Shown piece by piece: positions 2,817 to 45,400 of a stretch of 64,000 nucleotides of DNA. Origin of the DNA: Echinarachnius parma. Taxonomy: Eukaryota > Echinodermata > Echinoidea > Clypeasteroida > Echinarachniidae. The notes below the pieces were generated by a model. The model saw only the letters and a list, made by a program, of their open reading frames with translations, was not told where the DNA came from and did not search any database. How positions within the stretch are numbered: the stretch's first letter is position 1; each line of letters opens with the position of its first letter. The stretch is from assembly GCA_037951105.1 (NCBI GenBank), contig JBAMJV010003083.1, positions 62,001 to 126,000 on the forward strand. Reading direction: 5' to 3'. Both the position numbers and the translations under genes were made by a program.

Positions 2817-2899
2817 CCCTGGTAACACTTTTCTGTTGTGAAGTTCTTTTTGTGCCTTGTCTGCCGTTACACCGGAAAAGAATGTGACAAAACAGCAAC
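2817..2899 (-). CDS. celf: CELF1/2-like RNA-binding protein, 83-nt exon completing RRM1
   Basis: On the minus strand, acceptor gattgtttcccag is followed by 83 nt and then donor GTGAGTAG. The first two bases (GT) complete the glycine codon left open by the 3554-3773 exon. The remaining 27 codons read CCFVTFFSGVTADKAQKE, then LHNRKVLPG. This supplies RNP1 (KGCCFVTF, aromatic residues on the central beta strand) and helix 2 of RRM1. The vertebrate CELF1 counterpart is CCFVTFYTRKAALEAQ then NALHNMKVLPG, and as I recall it is also encoded by an 83-nt exon, so both length and phase (1 in, 0 out) match. It is too short to appear as a conventional ORF. The following CELF exon (PIQxKPADSE) was not found with confidence to the left and is probably outside the window. 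The 654-bp intron to the previous exon (2900-3553) contains two decayed copies of that exon. Confidence 0.93.
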
Positions 2900-3220
2900 C
2901 TGGGAAACAATCAAGATAACAAAGAAAATATATCAGTCTTAAATATTCTTTGCATTCATGAAGCAATTATATTTGACAATATTACTTAGAATTTGACACT
3001 TAGGAACAAGAATACTACAAATCCTGTTTGCTTTCATCATTTAAAGTTATAACCATTGATTCCTCACGGTTATTTTATATTTACATGACCTATTTTTGCT
3101 TGGTTCTGTAATAATCTCATTCCAATAGATACATGTACTAGTTCAATAACCTTTCCATAACATAGCTCTAAGAGGATACATTCACTAATGAATGGATTAG
3201 TTGGGCTCTATTGATAACTG

Positions 3221-3354
3221 GCCTTTACTCCCCACCCTATTCTTTTCCCTCAGCAAGTTGTGCTCATAGACAGATCATATACAATCCGAGAACATTGCTT
3301 CAATTTCATCCTCTTCTAAAGATTTGGGTATCCGTCCTACGAACATGTCAAGTT
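3221..3354 (-). pseudogene. Decayed tandem copy C of the CELF RRM1 exon
   Basis: This stretch aligns along its length with the RRM1 half of the 3554-3773 exon. On the minus strand it reads MFVGRIPKSLEEDEIEAMFS, then DCI, a TGA stop, then SVYEHNLLREKN and GSKG. The intact exon has MFVGQIPKSYEEDKLKEMFS and VYELNVLRDKK. There is a 3-nt insertion near the stop, a 1-nt loss just before the ATG, and the donor has changed from AAAG|GTGAGT to AAAGGCCAGT. The similarity continues into the flanking intron: aacctttccataac occurs near 3148-3161 and near 3507-3520. It therefore looks like a segmental tandem duplication inside intron 2 that is no longer a usable exon. Confidence 0.85.
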
Positions 3355-3393
3355 AAATAACTCAATAACATGGATCTACAAATGTTTAAATGT

Positions 3394-3484
3394 GGCATTT
3401 ACTCTCTCCCGGTCCAACTTTGAGAATATTACTAAACTTTCCCTTGTCATCAACTTGGTAACTGTCCTACAAACATCTTGAGTC
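3394..3484 (-). pseudogene. Decayed tandem copy B of the CELF RRM1 exon
   Basis: A second, more damaged copy lies between copy C and the intact exon. On the plus strand, gcatttactctctccc, ggtccaactttgagaa and tgtcctacaaacatcttgag correspond in order to three parts of the intact exon, the last without a mismatch. A block equivalent to the LRDKK region is deleted, and indels between the blocks destroy the reading frame. The donor has become AAATGCC. It is not translatable; it shows that the duplication happened more than once or involved several units. Confidence 0.75.
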
Positions 3485-3553
3485 TTGAGAGCATTAGCGA
3501 TATCCAACCTTTCCATAACTTAGTCTAATACTGGCAGTCTATCTCTCACTCAC

Positions 3554-3773
3554 CTTTACTCTCTCCTGTTTTCTTGTCCCTCAACACGTTGAGTTCGTAG
3601 ACAGGTCCAAACTCTGAGAACATTTCTTTGAGTTTATCCTCTTCATATGACTTGGGTATCTGTCCTACAAACATCTTGAGTGAGTCTGGGTCTGGCTGGG
3701 CTCCCTGGGGCTGTGCCCCCGAATCTACAGTATTCATCATCATCGGGCACTCCGGGGTGTTCGCTAGGGGTCT
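3554..3773 (-). CDS. celf: CELF1/2-like RNA-binding protein, exon encoding N-terminus and first half of RRM1
   Basis: CELF proteins bind GU-rich RNA through three RRMs and control alternative splicing, translation and mRNA decay. Read on the minus strand, this 220-nt exon is open throughout. It starts after a polypyrimidine/AG acceptor (ttgtatcttccag) and ends AAAG before GTGAGTGAG, leaving one base of a split glycine codon. It encodes RPLANTPECP, then MMMNTVDSG, a short Q/P-rich linker ending PDPDSLK, the RNP2 strand KMFVGQIP, helix 1 (YEEDKLKEMFSEFG) and VYELNVLRD, ending at ESKG. In vertebrate CELF1/2 the equivalent coding exon also breaks inside the glycine of SKG|CCFVTF. MFVGQIP and VYELNVLRD fit CELF1/2 better than CELF3-6, which have LFVGQIP and FELTVIKD. 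Translation could start at an upstream ATG (see 55389-55547) or at the ATGATGATG in this exon. The next exon is at 2817-2899. The family is certain from the motif; the exact paralogue is inferred. Confidence 0.93.
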
Positions 3774-3896
3774 CTGGAAGATACAATCACAATATGCACA
3801 AATTAATCTAACAATAAAAAAAAAAACTACAGCAATGGAAAAAACAATAGTTTATTATACAGTGCTTCTATTCTGCTTTATTTAATTTCAACAAGT

Positions 3897-3960
3897 AGTC
3901 AGCATCATGAGGGACTTGGAAGTGGTAGCTAGAGGTCTCTGAAAATTAATCACAATATTG
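3897..3960 (-). pseudogene. Decayed copy D: acceptor end of the CELF RRM1 exon
   Basis: Just upstream (in transcript order) of the intact exon, the minus strand reads ttaattttcag|AGACCTCTAGCTACC and continues with ATGATG. This matches the intact acceptor and first codons (AGACCCCTAGCGAACACC ... ATGATGATG). Translation gives RPLATTSKSLMML, then TTC and a stop. The acceptor and pyrimidine tract look intact, but the frame ends after 16 codons and no RRM part follows. It could act as a decoy acceptor. Confidence 0.65.
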
Positions 3961-6900
3961 AGAATTTCATTTGACGATACTATTATGTACAACAAGATGT
4001 ATAATGAGATGAATATAAGTTATAGAGAAATTGTACAAGCAATGCTAGATTACGTGGCTAAGTTGGAAATGCTTCATGGGGTGCAATATAGCTCTAAGCA
4101 TGGGTTGCCCTCATGTTTTTACACTAAATTGCAAGTCAAATATTCAATGTCACGCAATGATCGCATATGTTTATCAAAGCTATTAAACCGTCTTCAATGT
4201 CTCCATGGCACAAATTCTAGCATTGCCAGAAAGACATCTGAAAGACAATGTCTACATCACGACTCAAAAATAAACTTGGGGCTCAAAATAAACTAACAGG
4301 AAAGTATAACCATGACTGCTCACAATTAGGTGGCCAGAAAACATAATTTAGTAGCCCAAAACAGAGGAAATATAAGAAAGTCAGTCACATTTGGTTGCCC
4401 AGTTGTGTAAATGAAATTTGGCACTTAGTAAAATTGTAGTGGCCAGAAGCTAATTGTTATCAATCTGTAAATTCAAGTCATCTGTAAATTCAAGTCAAGG
4501 AAACATTTCCATGTCCGAGATGTTTACTCAAACAAATTAAACACGACTGGTGCAGGTAGAGGCACGAGTATGAATAATGTGCATTTCAATTCTCAGCCTC
4601 TTGATTCTATTCTATTCCTTGTACTTGTGGTGCACAAGGTAGGCAGGTATACTGAATGTAGCTTCCCCAATACACAATCAACACTTATCAACTCAGCTCA
4701 CAGTCAGACTTCTCTTCTTAATCCACTAATAGCAATTTGATTTTTGTATATACCTGTACTGTCAATACCTGTACTGACTATACCTCAACTGGTGCATTTT
4801 CAACATGTTTCTAACTACTTGCACTTAAAGAAAGGAATTATCTACCCAGGATGAATAAGGCATGATTGAATTGATATTATAATAAAATAGAAATTAATAG
4901 GGTAATGAAGAGAAATTTTGGTCTCAAAATTGTAAGGTAATTGTTGATGACCTTTTGTTAAACAGACTTGGTGTGTACCCAAATGAACTCTCCATTTGGA
5001 ATGTCCCTTCTCTCTAGTTCTGCTCACTTTCGCTTCTCCTTCTATGCTCTATTTTTAGCCAATTCACAAGATAGGGAAACAAGGACTGCAGATTGAGATT
5101 GAAGTACAACGGCTTGCTAGATGATAACAAGGCACTTAGACTACGTCGCAGGCTCAAGGCATAAATTGACTTGAAATATTGAATTTCCTCTCATCCAAAT
5201 AATGAAGAAGCTCTCGACTTTGGATGCCATAAGCGGCTTAGAATTTCATTTTGAAAGACTTCCAAAATTCAATAACTATCTGTTAGGGTCATCAGCATCT
5301 AATATTGCATCAGAGAATTGACAGGACATTATTACTAAGAAGAAATTCATGTTATCCTTGGTGAAAGGCTACAAGAAGCGGGCAATATTGCCGGGCAATC
5401 ACTAAGGTGTATGGACCCAACACTTAATGCAACTTTATTGCAATATCTCACGAGTGCGCATGCTATTGAAGACAGGGAAAATTGCTTGTGTAAATAACCA
5501 TCACAATCTGTTAGATGACATCCTACAATTGGGACAGGGTAAAGAGATTGAGAAATGTTCATTATTAAAACAAGCACGATGTGATAGTGTACAAAAGATA
5601 TTACATTCTCCTCTGTATTTTTCTGATCTCTCCTTCCGGAAAGAAACCCTATTGCCGATCGATGAAACTTGACATAAAAAATTAGTTGAAATAGATTGGA
5701 AGTAGGTGATATTTACACAGGAATAAACAGTCTCTATGTTCATAGTTCAACAAGACTAGCTCATTATTTGTATTGATTTAAGTACTGATTACATCTTCAT
5801 ATGCAGTCGTAATTGCATCATATAGCAAAAATCATAGCTAGTAATAATAAACAGTTGAATTGCAATTGACATGCAAAGTCAGGGCTTACTGTCTCATTAA
5901 GGCCTAATGCAATGCCAAGTTAATTGCTTTATACTAGCCTCCCATTAGGAAGAGCAAGGTAAAGCCACATGTAATGACAGGAGTGGGACTAAGGCAGACT
6001 CATCAGTCATCGGTGAGCCTGTAATGGGATGCAGTTTGTAATAGGATGCAGTTTGTATACACAGCTACAACCATGAGCAGCTCTTCATGACAGAGAGGTA
6101 GAATAAGAAGGCACAGTGAAGAAGAGGACACCATCCATTTCTTTTGTTTATATTTAACTTAAATATTTTAATACATCTTGTACAATGTGCATTTTCATTA
6201 TTCTCCGTTTGATGTTCACTTTAATATTTGCACAGAAAAGTATTGAAATGTCAGTAAATTTGTGACATATCACAAATGTTCATATTTTAAAAAGTAAAAA
6301 CTGGGAATCAACACTAGTACTATTGCTCTTGATACATACCAGTATAAGCATGGCTGTAATTTCTGGCTGTAGTTTTCAGTGGTGAAAGGCAAATGCAATT
6401 GACTGTTCTATTCTCTCAGCCTCTATTACTATTACTGCAGTGTTGTGCACATATGCACTATCCATTAGCTCCTTTCTGCTCTAACTAATCAACTTACAGC
6501 AGGAATGTCCATGGACCAGTGCTGTACATAGAATAACAATAGCAGATAAGGGCCTGCCACACAACTGTGCCAATGGAATGTGGGACATTCAAGGCATGTT
6601 GTAGTAATTAGCATCACAGGTTTTCAACCAACATTCCTTATTGTAAAAGTTCAGTTACTAGTACTAAGTTAAATGTGTGACTGAAAAGGGAAATGTGCAG
6701 TAACAATAAAAGTGAAAAACTTGCTTGTAAATTCATAGTTGAGGATGGTGCCTAATGAGCATGTTCTTTCAATATAAGGTTTACTCCGTAGTGTAAAGAT
6801 AGCTAATTTAGAAAAGTTGGTTTTCACACTACAAATCTATTTATCTAGGGAGCTAACCATACAATTCTGATTTGTTTGTTCAACAAGCAGCTTTGTAGGC

Positions 6901-29291: not shown

Positions 29292-30030
29292 ACCAGAACG
29301 TCAATGACGTAGCGCTCATCCGCCATCTCGCAACATCAAATATCGCAAATTTCATGTGGTACACTTTTCAACTGGTCAAAAAATAAAAATTTGATGCCCT
29401 GGAAGGGACATAAAAATAAAATTTTAAAAAATTAGAGTGAAAAAAATATAAATTTGACGCCCCGGAAGGGACATGGGAAAAAAAAATTCATATAATAATA
29501 ATAATAATAATAATAATAAATTAATTAATTAAAATAAAAACAATAAAAAAAAAACTTAAAAAAATAAAAAAAAAACAATTAAAAAAAAAAAAAAATTAAA
29601 AATTAAAAAATTAAAAAATTAAAAATTACCATAATTAATGAATGGAGAACAATTTCAAAATTCTGTGTAGAAGTTTAGTGTACCAAAGTTAGCTCTACCA
29701 GATAAAGCAAACCAAATCAAAATCGGTCGAGAAATGAAGGAGAAGAAGCATTTTTTGTGATTTCGAATACATTTGCATAAATTACCATAGATAATGAATT
29801 TCACGATTCTGTGTAGAAGTTTTAAATCCCCCTCCTAGCCCTATCTTATGAAACAATCAGAATCAAAATCGGTTGAAAAATAACGAAGAAGAAGCATTTT
29901 GAAAACTGTGGACGGACGGACGGAAGGACGGACGGAAGGACGGACGGAAGGACGGACGGAAGGACGGACGGACGACGGACGCAACGGCATGGCATAAGCT
30001 CATCGGGCCCTTCGGGCCGGATGAGCTAAA
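29292..30030. mobile_element. Interspersed element with ACGG tail, copy 1
   Basis: Begins cagaacgtcaatgacgtagc, gctcatccgccatctcgc and ends gcccttcgggccgg, atgagctaaa. Shared internal blocks with 39400-39999 are tgccctggaagggacat, attctgtgtagaagttt (twice) and cgaagaagaagcattttgaa, followed by a (GGAC)n tetramer array. The ends are loosely inverted (tagcgctcatccg / cggatgagcta). An A/T-rich variable middle (29480-29640) contains (AAT)n. No protein is encoded. Confidence 0.88.
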
Positions 30031-39399: not shown

Positions 39400-39999
39400 A
39401 CAGAACGTCAATGATGTAGCGCTCATCCGCCATCTCGCAACATCAAATATCGCAAATTTCATGTGGTACACTTTTCAACTGGTCAAAAAAATAAAAATTT
39501 GATGCCCTGGAAGGGACATGGGGAAAAAAAACAAACAAACAAACAAACAAACAAAAAATAAATAAATAAAAATAATAAAATAAATAAATTAAAAAAATTA
39601 ATTAATTAATTAAATTTAAAAAAATTTAAAAATTAAAAATTACAATGAATGGAGAAAAATTTCAAAATTCTGTGTAGAAGTTTAGTGTACCAAAGTTAGC
39701 TCTACCAGATAAAGCAAACCAAATCAAAATCGGTCGAGAAATGAAGGAGAAGAAGCATTTTTTGTGATTTCGAATAAATTTGCATAAATTACCATAGATA
39801 ATGAATTTCACGATTCTGTGTAGAAGTTTTAAATCCCCCTCCTAGCCCTATCTTATGAAACAATCAGAATCAAAATCAGTTGAAAAATAACGAAGAAGAA
39901 GCATTTTGAAAACTGGAAGGACGGACGGACGGAAGGACGGACGACGGACGCCACGCCATGGCATAAGCTCATCGTGCCCTTCGGGCCGGATGAGCTAAA
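39400..39999. mobile_element. Interspersed element with ACGG tail, copy 2
   Basis: Same family and orientation as 29292-30030: starts cagaacgtcaatgatgtagc and ends gccggatgagctaaa. The variable A/T-rich middle here is (AAAC)n/(AAAT)n rather than (AAT)n, and the GGAC array is shorter. A poly-G run (40004-40021) follows. Confidence 0.88.
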
Positions 40000-42439: not shown

Positions 42440-45400
42440 TTCTATTCTCACACCTGCTGCTTTCATTGACGGATCAATCACCATCATCTCCTCATAATAC
42501 GGCCTTGACTAGCAACAAATATAGATATGCTAGCAAAGTTACAACAATATTTGCTATACTTTCACTGTGTGATAATCATGTCTAAACTATCAACACTACA
42601 TGTACTAACTACACCACACAAAAGCAAGACCATGAACAATCCCAGTAAAAGTACCAATCGAGACATAAAAGTCATTTTTATAGAACTCATTTTCCTCCAA
42701 AACTGCTGAAAGGGTTCAAGAGATTTTGATAAATTTAAGTAATTATTGTACTTAATTCTATTTGATGAATCTCTTGAAATAAAGAAAATAAATTTACAAG
42801 AATATTAACTACTAGTACTGATTTGCATAAAAGAATTAACCAAATTAATTAGGGCTAATAATATCAACATGTCAGTGGTATTTCAGGTTTGATCCTGGTT
42901 TTACATGGAATTGGCTAACCCTATTACTTTAACACCATGGGATTTCATAAACAAAATGTTACCTTCTTAATTTTTAGCACAAAAGGGGCATTTACAAGTC
43001 CTTTATAAGCAATCTTACTATAAGGGGTCAATAGTGTTTACTATCAAAGAAAAGCCTGCAATCATTTCCAACTACAGAATAATATTTTCCTTCAAAATTG
43101 AGACATTTTCCAAAGGAAAACAACAAAGTGCCAGACATAATATTTGGGAATCCATTTTCCAAGTTGGTTTGGTATTAACCCCATAAATAGATGACCTGCC
43201 TTGGAACAGTTTGGATTTGGGAGAATTATAAGCCACAGAGGGCCAACTGGGTAATTAGGATAAGTATGAAGCCAACATGTTCAATATAATCACTGCAAAT
43301 ACAATGTATGTGGAATGGTGGCATGGTCCTGGTATGAATCATGTATTTTACCTAATGGTCCCCTAGGACTCAATACACACACCTTGTGAAAGGCCAATGT
43401 ATTGTTGGATGAATGAATAGCATGCTCTACAAAGCCATGCAGGCTGGCTACCAATAAACCCTTTCCATATCACACCATGAGATTGCCATTTATTTATTGC
43501 ACATCATATTGTGATATGGTACTAAATGGATTATTTCAGCATAACTTAGCAATGTCTGCATGGTTCAGCACATGTTTACCTGCCTATTTCAATTCAAGTA
43601 GCAAGCGAGCTTAGTCCACCCAAGTTGTGAATTGGTCCAAAAACTGCTTAAAGTTCAGATTTAGGAAAGGATCCATAAATAAGATTATATTCTTCTCATG
43701 GTGTAATCAAAGGTCAACCATTGGTGACCATCCATTTTTAATCAAAACTGTTCATGATTTTGAGGTTTCAGGTTGACCACAATTTGTGTACATATCGGAG
43801 AAGAAATATTGCCACCTCTCCTCGTCATGTAAATACAAGCAGAAAATACAATCCCCTTTTTCTTGTAGTGCACTTTCTATTTGTGAACATATCTTCTGAC
43901 ATTTCACTATCAAGAATACAAGCATACATGCGGGTAATGGCATTCATTAGGGTTTTAAACAGATAGCCAACTGCTTATTATGATGGGTTACACATTTTAT
44001 GAAATAGATGTACTTCACTGCTATACATTTTTAAAACCCAGACCTTCAGGCCATGAAGCAACCATTGAAGCAGTATGATTGCTCTTTCAAAAATGATGCG
44101 AGGCAAAATTTACGGAAAAACTTGCACCATCTCTTGGACACGTCAAAGTTGTTGATGTGAAAGGGGTGCAATGTTTGGTTGAGTGCATACCAGCCCAGCA
44201 GGTGGATTGGTCTCGTACACTACACACCCACGCAACTTATCCTCATTCGCTCAACCAGCAACACACTTTACCCGTATATACATCAAATTTACCTACATAA
44301 TCATCAGAACTGGACAAGCATGCTGCCACAGAAACTAATACATCAACAAACATCACCAAATTTACCTTTACATCAAAACAACAAAAAATGTACCCTTCAA
44401 ATAAATATTTAAAAACAGGCAATCAAATTATCTGGTGCATCGAGAGAAACTGCAACAATTTACCTGCACATCAGTCATTGTAGTACTTGAAGCTATTGTA
44501 GCTAAACCAGCAAGAAGTCAAACATGGAATTCGCCCAAAAAACACATCAACAAATTACACAAAACTTCCTCGTATCAGAATTCCGACTGTCCTAGCTTCT
44601 AATAGCACTGGAACTGAACTATATTGATTCAAAGCCAATAAGGCAATATTGGAACCAATCACGTTCACCTTTCCATCCAATGAAATTGAACATTTCCTCT
44701 AAAGTCTATCCATTCATGTGATAGCTTGAGAAGAAGAACGTGACTGAATGTGGAATGACCTGCGAACACTAAAGCTGTATGTACGACTCAGCTCTTCAAG
44801 TTCAATGCAAACAGAAATATCAGCAACAACAAAAAGGGGAACTATGCAAGGCTTTCAAACAGACTCAATATCAAGTTTCATTTTTTCTTGATCCTAAAAG
44901 CATTGTAATGCACTGAACTTGGTGTACCATCAAGTATGGTAGAGGTTATATGTGAAGTGATCTTTTCCACAAACAATTATACCAATTAATTCTCAAGGAA
45001 AACCAATTTGGAGATTTTCCTTTTAAGAACCTTCTTTTCTTCTTGATAATGATATGCACCATTCCACAGGAAAACTAATCAGGATTTATAAACTAATTAC
45101 CACAATTTGAATGCAAAACCTCTATTACATCTAGAGATTTATAAAACTTGGAAAGGTTGTTATTATTAGCACTTTAATCCATTCAACTCATTTCTAATTT
45201 TCATTTTAATATTCTCTAGATGGTAGACCATAGCCCAAGACTTTGGGCGACTGGGAATAGTCCTGAATGGGCCTAACGCTGCAAAATGAATTTATCTGCA
45301 CAATTCATACATGACCTTTACCTGACCAGCAGCGGATTGCTAAATAATGATCAATACATTCCCTGCAGGGACATGGTGGGTCCTGCATTTAGGACTGACT

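Follow-up and report, generated by a model that had tools for sequence, protein, structure and literature searches.

Decayed partial copies of exon edges beside the first RRM1 exon of a CELF gene in Echinarachnius parma

The first RRM1 exon of a CELF gene in the Echinarachnius parma assembly (1.2 Gb, 14,790 contigs) is accompanied on its own strand by three segments that resemble it. A sequence-only reading had described these as four versions of the same exon, one intact and three decayed, and possibly as the relic of an alternative RRM1 that has been lost. The question is whether whole exons were ever duplicated here or whether the segments arose as pieces. We conclude that they are very probably what remains of two or more local tandem duplications, in each of which one breakpoint fell within the exon and the second in the intron next to it. 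Positions refer to the window, the whole stretch of 64,000 nucleotides analysed (C3082:62001-126000), unless a contig is named.

The CELF gene and its intact exon

The intact exon (B, 3554-3773, minus strand) is 220 nt long and reads RPLANTPECPMMMNTVDSGAQPQGAQPDPDSLKMFVGQIPKSYEEDKLKEMFSEFGPVYELNVLRDKKTGESK(G). Its splice sites (acceptor TTCCAG/AGACC, donor AAAG/GTGAGT) and its CELF1 and CELF2 matches agree with the earlier placement of an intact exon at these positions in a CELF gene. It codes for the first half of an RRM1 of CELF1/2 type, also matches Pfam RRM_1, and contains MFVGQI, which we take to be RNP2, and ATGATGATG, a putative translation start. The next exon, the second of RRM1, was located at 2817-2899 (minus; GCCFVTFFSGVTADKAQKELHNRKVLPG). 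The best PDB chains for the two joined RRM1 exons were those of CELF1 (E 2.9e-38) and CELF2 (E 7.9e-38). On contig C3082 the RRM1 exon occupies 65554-65773 (minus). An RRM2 half-domain (43069-42938, minus, 68% to CELF2) was found about 22 kb downstream of it, and an RRM3-like exon reading LFIYHLPQ.. (17433-17305, minus), presumably RRM3, about 48 kb downstream. Their order on a single strand is consistent with a CELF1/2-type gene.

The RRM1 peptide had 12 matches in the assembly, namely B, its partner exon, one of the fragments described below (D, with one TGA) and nine others. Since those nine were only 29-43% identical, no second close CELF1/2 RRM1 was seen in this assembly. Several RRM-bearing frames of 434-447 aa, with equal scores, were present on many contigs of the same genome and are more suggestive of a multicopy element than of single-copy host genes. 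Among ten open frames of the window the CELF exon alone passed the Pfam cut-off, and Rfam returned nothing at its gathering cut-offs. Viral contigs yielded 58 pattern matches and no relative, and a scan of prokaryote genomes gave four RRM relatives, on contigs titled as bacterial MAGs, and so no orthologous intron for comparison.

No local copy of the second RRM1 exon was found with stretch 2820-2898, nor was a copy of it detected near D (358 of 1000 shuffles as good). In the intron, just after this exon, there was a short telomere-like run of TTAGGG/TTTAGG (2679-2733, minus-strand reading). The next CELF intron contained an 87-nt unit in three copies with 99% matches (1707-1967), and this array is a very recent local duplication.

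Fragments, unit boundaries and decay

The tandem repeats at the exon are real. Local alignment scores were compared with 500 dinucleotide shuffles per pair, and each fragment scored higher against B than any of the shuffles. The scores were well beyond chance for A-B (31.5, null maximum 20.5), B-C (34.5, null maximum 16.0) and B-D (66.0, null maximum 15.5). C-D scored 19.5, just above the null maximum of 18.0. A-C (9.0) and A-D (8.0) were at chance level because A carries a different part of the exon from C and D.

Fragment A (3894-3979, minus), upstream of B, consists of 41 nt of intron end, an AG acceptor and the first 45 nt of the exon. It had been recognised as an acceptor-end fragment, correctly so, although the extent proposed for it (3897-3960) was too short. 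It was 72% identical to B 3729-3816, and unrelated sequence follows its 45 exonic nt. The AG acceptor is intact and lies 165 nt upstream of the real one; stops follow, and the frame ends after 16 codons.

The other two fragments are downstream of B. Fragment C (3398-3483, minus) represents the 3′ part of the exon, interrupted by small gaps and by one large internal deletion. A partial copy had been suggested at 3394-3484, and the match to the exon was upheld for 3398-3483, in the form of gapped pieces of the 3′ part. The first 22 nt of C are identical to B and the remainder is much diverged, an unevenness that gene conversion or differing ages could possibly explain. Its donor GT is lost (AAATGCC). 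Fragment D (3223-3353, minus) holds 131 of the 220 nt of the exon, the 3′ part alone. The sequence-only reading had a nearly full copy with a stop at 3221-3354; the stop, an in-frame TGA, is present, but the near-full length is not. D also has 3 additional nucleotides and a donor changed from GT to GC (AAAGGCCAGT). It was 73% identical to B over a 147-nt alignment, in which the sole gap within the exon is the one of 3 nt, the frame being preserved elsewhere.

The segments are thus not four versions of the same exon, as A has only the 5′ edge, C and D have only the 3′ part, and no copy is a whole exon with both splice sites. The alignments of C and D both begin at the same mid-exon base, B 3681, and exon bases 3682-3728 are absent from every copy. 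No remnant of an acceptor and 5′ half was detected before C (157 of 1000 shuffles as good) or before D (757 of 1000), and none of an exon 3′ half after A (3817-3893; 408 of 1000). A lost alternative RRM1 is not what this pattern indicates, with C and D starting at one base and the missing halves leaving no trace. Tandem duplication at the exon is upheld; duplication of the whole exon, which needs a copy that once had both splice sites, is not. A further copy downstream of D was unsupported with C, D or B as the query (138, 583 and 586 of 1000 shuffles as good, respectively), and no copies were found upstream of A (599 and 719 of 1000).

Flanking intron is common to the copies, as had been claimed: 3939-3979 matched 3774-3816, and 3148-3171 in the intron after D matched 3506-3528 in the intron after B (0 of 1000 shuffles as good). 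The intron after B (3484-3553, minus) abuts C and forms the end of the first array unit. Within the intron after D (3148-3222, minus), 3207-3222 was likewise similar to 3538-3553. Since the intron after D resembles that after B, the unit that was duplicated extended from the middle of the exon into intron sequence. The junction of C and D aligned over 40 columns with what follows D (1 of 1000 shuffles as good). Two results speak against this: compared directly, the introns before C and before D were not significantly similar (226 of 1000), and the intron before D, when taken alone, gave 8 of 1000 against the sequence after D. Most simply, the unit would be about 200 nt long, beginning within the exon and ending in the intron. 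C and D have donor changes in common at columns 135 and 136 of alignment A1, which are among 11 intronic columns in which C and D agree with each other but not with B. In its exonic columns C agreed with B in 15, D with B in 12 and C with D in 4. On the upstream side, the 77 nt between A and B (3817-3893) matched neither the 5′ half of B (350 of 1000) nor what lies upstream of A (477 of 1000), and therefore the event that produced A shows no clean unit.

Over 39 codons, with the block around the 3-nt gap and its stop excluded, D differed from B by 28 nucleotides and 15 amino acids. The differences were in excess at third positions (6, 7 and 15 by codon position), and the counted dN/dS was 0.28 (dN 0.21, dS 0.75). 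Such a value resembles constraint, yet constraint on B alone is sufficient to produce it. B was conserved and omega on D was varied in 2000 simulations. For D free and for omega of 0.3, 0.2 and 0.1, the mean number of amino-acid changes was 16.8, 11.8, 10.3 and 8.1, and at least 15 changes were obtained with probabilities of 0.87, 0.087, 0.0245 and 0.0005, respectively. Strong constraint on D (omega 0.1 or 0.2) is therefore rejected, and values from 0.3 to 1 fit. A second simulation placed the nonsynonymous share, 0.61, within the pseudogene expectation (0.67, sd 0.08); under fivefold constraint 1 of 400 runs reached it. D fits free decay; weak constraint, with omega about 0.3 or more, also fits, and a short constrained phase followed by decay is conceivable.

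Edge fragments at other exons

When a tandem duplication crosses the 3′ edge of an exon, the orphan 3′ part must come to lie downstream of the intact exon; when it crosses the 5′ edge, the orphan 5′ part must lie upstream. Decayed copies of a whole exon need not follow this side rule. Near copies were defined as same-strand matches of at least 50 nt within 1.5 kb and with E up to 0.01. By this definition 14 clusters were found in the 64-kb window, two of them at exon B, and nine in the adjoining 30 kb, of which one reaches into the RRM2 exon. There (L020, G000:C3082 about 42938-43069) the 3′ part is copied downstream, with 79% identity over 89 nt and 80% over 46 nt. For the RRM3-like exon (L083, G000:C3082:17305-17433) a repeat of the 3′ end and donor is found 49 nt downstream. 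Fragments thus accompany three of the four CELF exons that were examined. Elsewhere in the window, A-rich stretches followed by GGAC/GGAA arrays were observed at 29497-29981 and 39525-39950, perhaps two copies of one repeat family.

The side rule was examined in 60 loci (the best 30 of 143 RRM matches and the best 30 of 128 homeobox matches) and the four CELF exons. We dropped 14 redundant loci, L033 and L040, which are two RRMs on one contig stretch that matched each other, and L079, a multi-homeobox frame, leaving 47 non-redundant exons. Exon-overlapping near copies were found at ten of these. All nine 3′-edge copies were downstream and all six 5′-edge copies upstream, so that the predicted polarity was seen in 15 of 15 edge-bearing copies. 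Two internal copies were both downstream, and four more matches touched the flanks only, on the sides predicted. There were no full copies among the 47 exons, and none of the 47 had inverted copies. Setting the four CELF exons aside left 7 of 43 exons, every one with the expected polarity. Among the ten, L049 contains a stop within the stretch that was matched and may be a decayed copy in its own right, and L045 depends on a 42-nt match with E 0.001.

A clearer array was that of the homeobox exon L081 (G000:C179, 97067-97222), a young tandem array downstream of the exon. It has four copies with 84-92% identity, three of which begin at the same exon base, 152 nt apart, and TRF gave a period of 152 with 94% matches. 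The repeat unit consists of the exon 3′ part, the donor and about 66 nt of intron, and a donor-like GGTAGG or GGTAGA is found in each copy. By eye, the first unit, 183 nt ahead of the second, is made up of the exon's own 3′ part and the intron that follows. The CELF RRM1 locus resembles an older form of this array.

As controls we used 244 random 170-nt segments from one 94-kb stretch with 23 clusters, at least 200 nt away from three CELF exons. Near copies were present in 44 of the 244, and 14 of those 44 had a full copy. The segments do not form an independent sample, part of D may fall within them, and the stretch may hold unannotated exons. Polarity was mixed, with 5′ parts upstream in 24 instances and downstream in 16, and 3′ parts downstream in 24 and upstream in 17. 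Near copies are about as frequent at exons as in other DNA (21% of exons vs 18% of control segments), but at exons only arrangements with one complete exon were seen. The lack of full copies at exons (0 of 10 vs 14 of 44 controls) had a one-sided hypergeometric P of about 0.035, by hand arithmetic and with control segments that are not independent. The frequency of such copies at exons of this genome and the polarity rule, which rest on 47 exons of two domain families, might be the only points new to specialists.

Explanations and known systems

We suggest that one duplication copied the intron end, the acceptor and the 5′ edge of the exon, which would have left A as an orphan 5′ fragment upstream. 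One or more others would have copied about 70 nt of intron together with the exon 3′ part and the donor. Unit 1 of the resulting head-to-tail array would then be the 3′ part of the exon itself, with C and D as later units that lack an acceptor and do not constitute exons. The copies may have arisen by replication slippage or by unequal exchange. The locus has the in-exon boundary and head-to-tail units of a partial exon-edge duplication, except that the outer boundary of A is not clean, and with A upstream and C and D downstream it has the layout that edge-spanning duplication must give. Orphan halves could not form a complete exon. Because edge duplications leave exactly one complete exon, exon-definition splicing can probably ignore the orphans, which decay. 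Duplications that yield a second whole exon would presumably be removed by selection.

Duplication of whole exons, with loss of a mutually exclusive RRM1 exon and deletions removing the 5′ half of C and D and the 3′ half of A, would account for the intron common to the copies, the good acceptor kept in A and a frame interrupted between D and B by the 3-nt gap alone; weak constraint on D is compatible with the simulation as well. However, C and D lack the 5′ half and acceptor from the same base onward without remnants, D fits free decay, and the fragment polarity recurs at other exons. We regard this explanation as quite improbable, although a whole-exon phase that was later wholly erased is in the strict sense conceivable. 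A new whole copy inserted in the middle of an old exon, with A and D as the two halves, was also considered. It fits the layout at RRM1 but not L081 or the RRM3 exon, whose copies are plain repeats, and was rejected.

A regulatory role for the fragments, with the acceptor of A or D itself used as a decoy, poison or 5′UTR element, seems very improbable. The AG acceptor is kept in A, D has GC in the position of the donor GT, and if ATGATGATG in B does start translation, the use of A would merely lengthen the 5′UTR. Nevertheless, C and D have no matching acceptor and have lost GT, strong constraint on D was not seen, and the fold of the segment is poorer than those of its shuffled versions (z +3.45, with 20 of 20 shuffles at least as stable). 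A competing RNA structure likewise received no support from the one fold of the segment and was rejected. The window is repeat-rich, as would suit an interspersed repeat that carries an exon piece. Against this, the earlier proposal that dispersal would betray an ordinary repeat was followed up with three probes (3200-3990, 3140-3353 and 3817-4100), each of which matched only itself in the 1.2-Gb assembly; absence of a match does not prove a sequence rare, and yet we give an interspersed repeat hardly any credence.

The CELF RRM1 locus is thus most likely an ordinary, explained case of edge debris, which is also found beside other exons of the genome. The result removes a candidate alternative RRM1. 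More generally, 5′ pieces upstream and 3′ pieces downstream of an intact exon point to edge-spanning duplication and not to a dead alternative exon, and polarity could be tested first wherever a survey would score degenerate exons as lost isoforms. Tentatively, about one fifth of the exons in this genome may carry decayed edge fragments, on the splicing-silent side and never whole, with exon definition acting as a filter on intense local duplication and orphan sites as a supply of decoys, some of them, such as the acceptor of A, maybe used. If this doubtful generalisation is true, many exons have orphan acceptors on their upstream side and orphan donors on their downstream side, which together form a lasting reservoir of decoy splice sites.

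Kondrashov and Koonin reportedly described tandem exon duplication with mutually exclusive splicing in 2001. In the accessible parts of two later sources, tandem exon duplication as a route to mutually exclusive splicing is well described (PMC9013439, PMC6071210). The open-licence literature, as far as its text was available and including PMC3585155, held no description of such exon copies in a CELF gene. Exonize (PMC12343006) resembles the present case in that, in the portion available, exon pieces are matched in the gene's own introns. That portion makes no statement on fragment polarity with respect to the intact exon. With mutually exclusive tandem exons, as presented in the available parts of PMC9013439 and PMC6071210, the CELF locus has in common a local tandem duplication that touches the exon and its flanking intron. 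Unlike those copies, which are spliced as alternatives, the copies at the CELF locus comprise exon edges only, and none of them has both splice sites.
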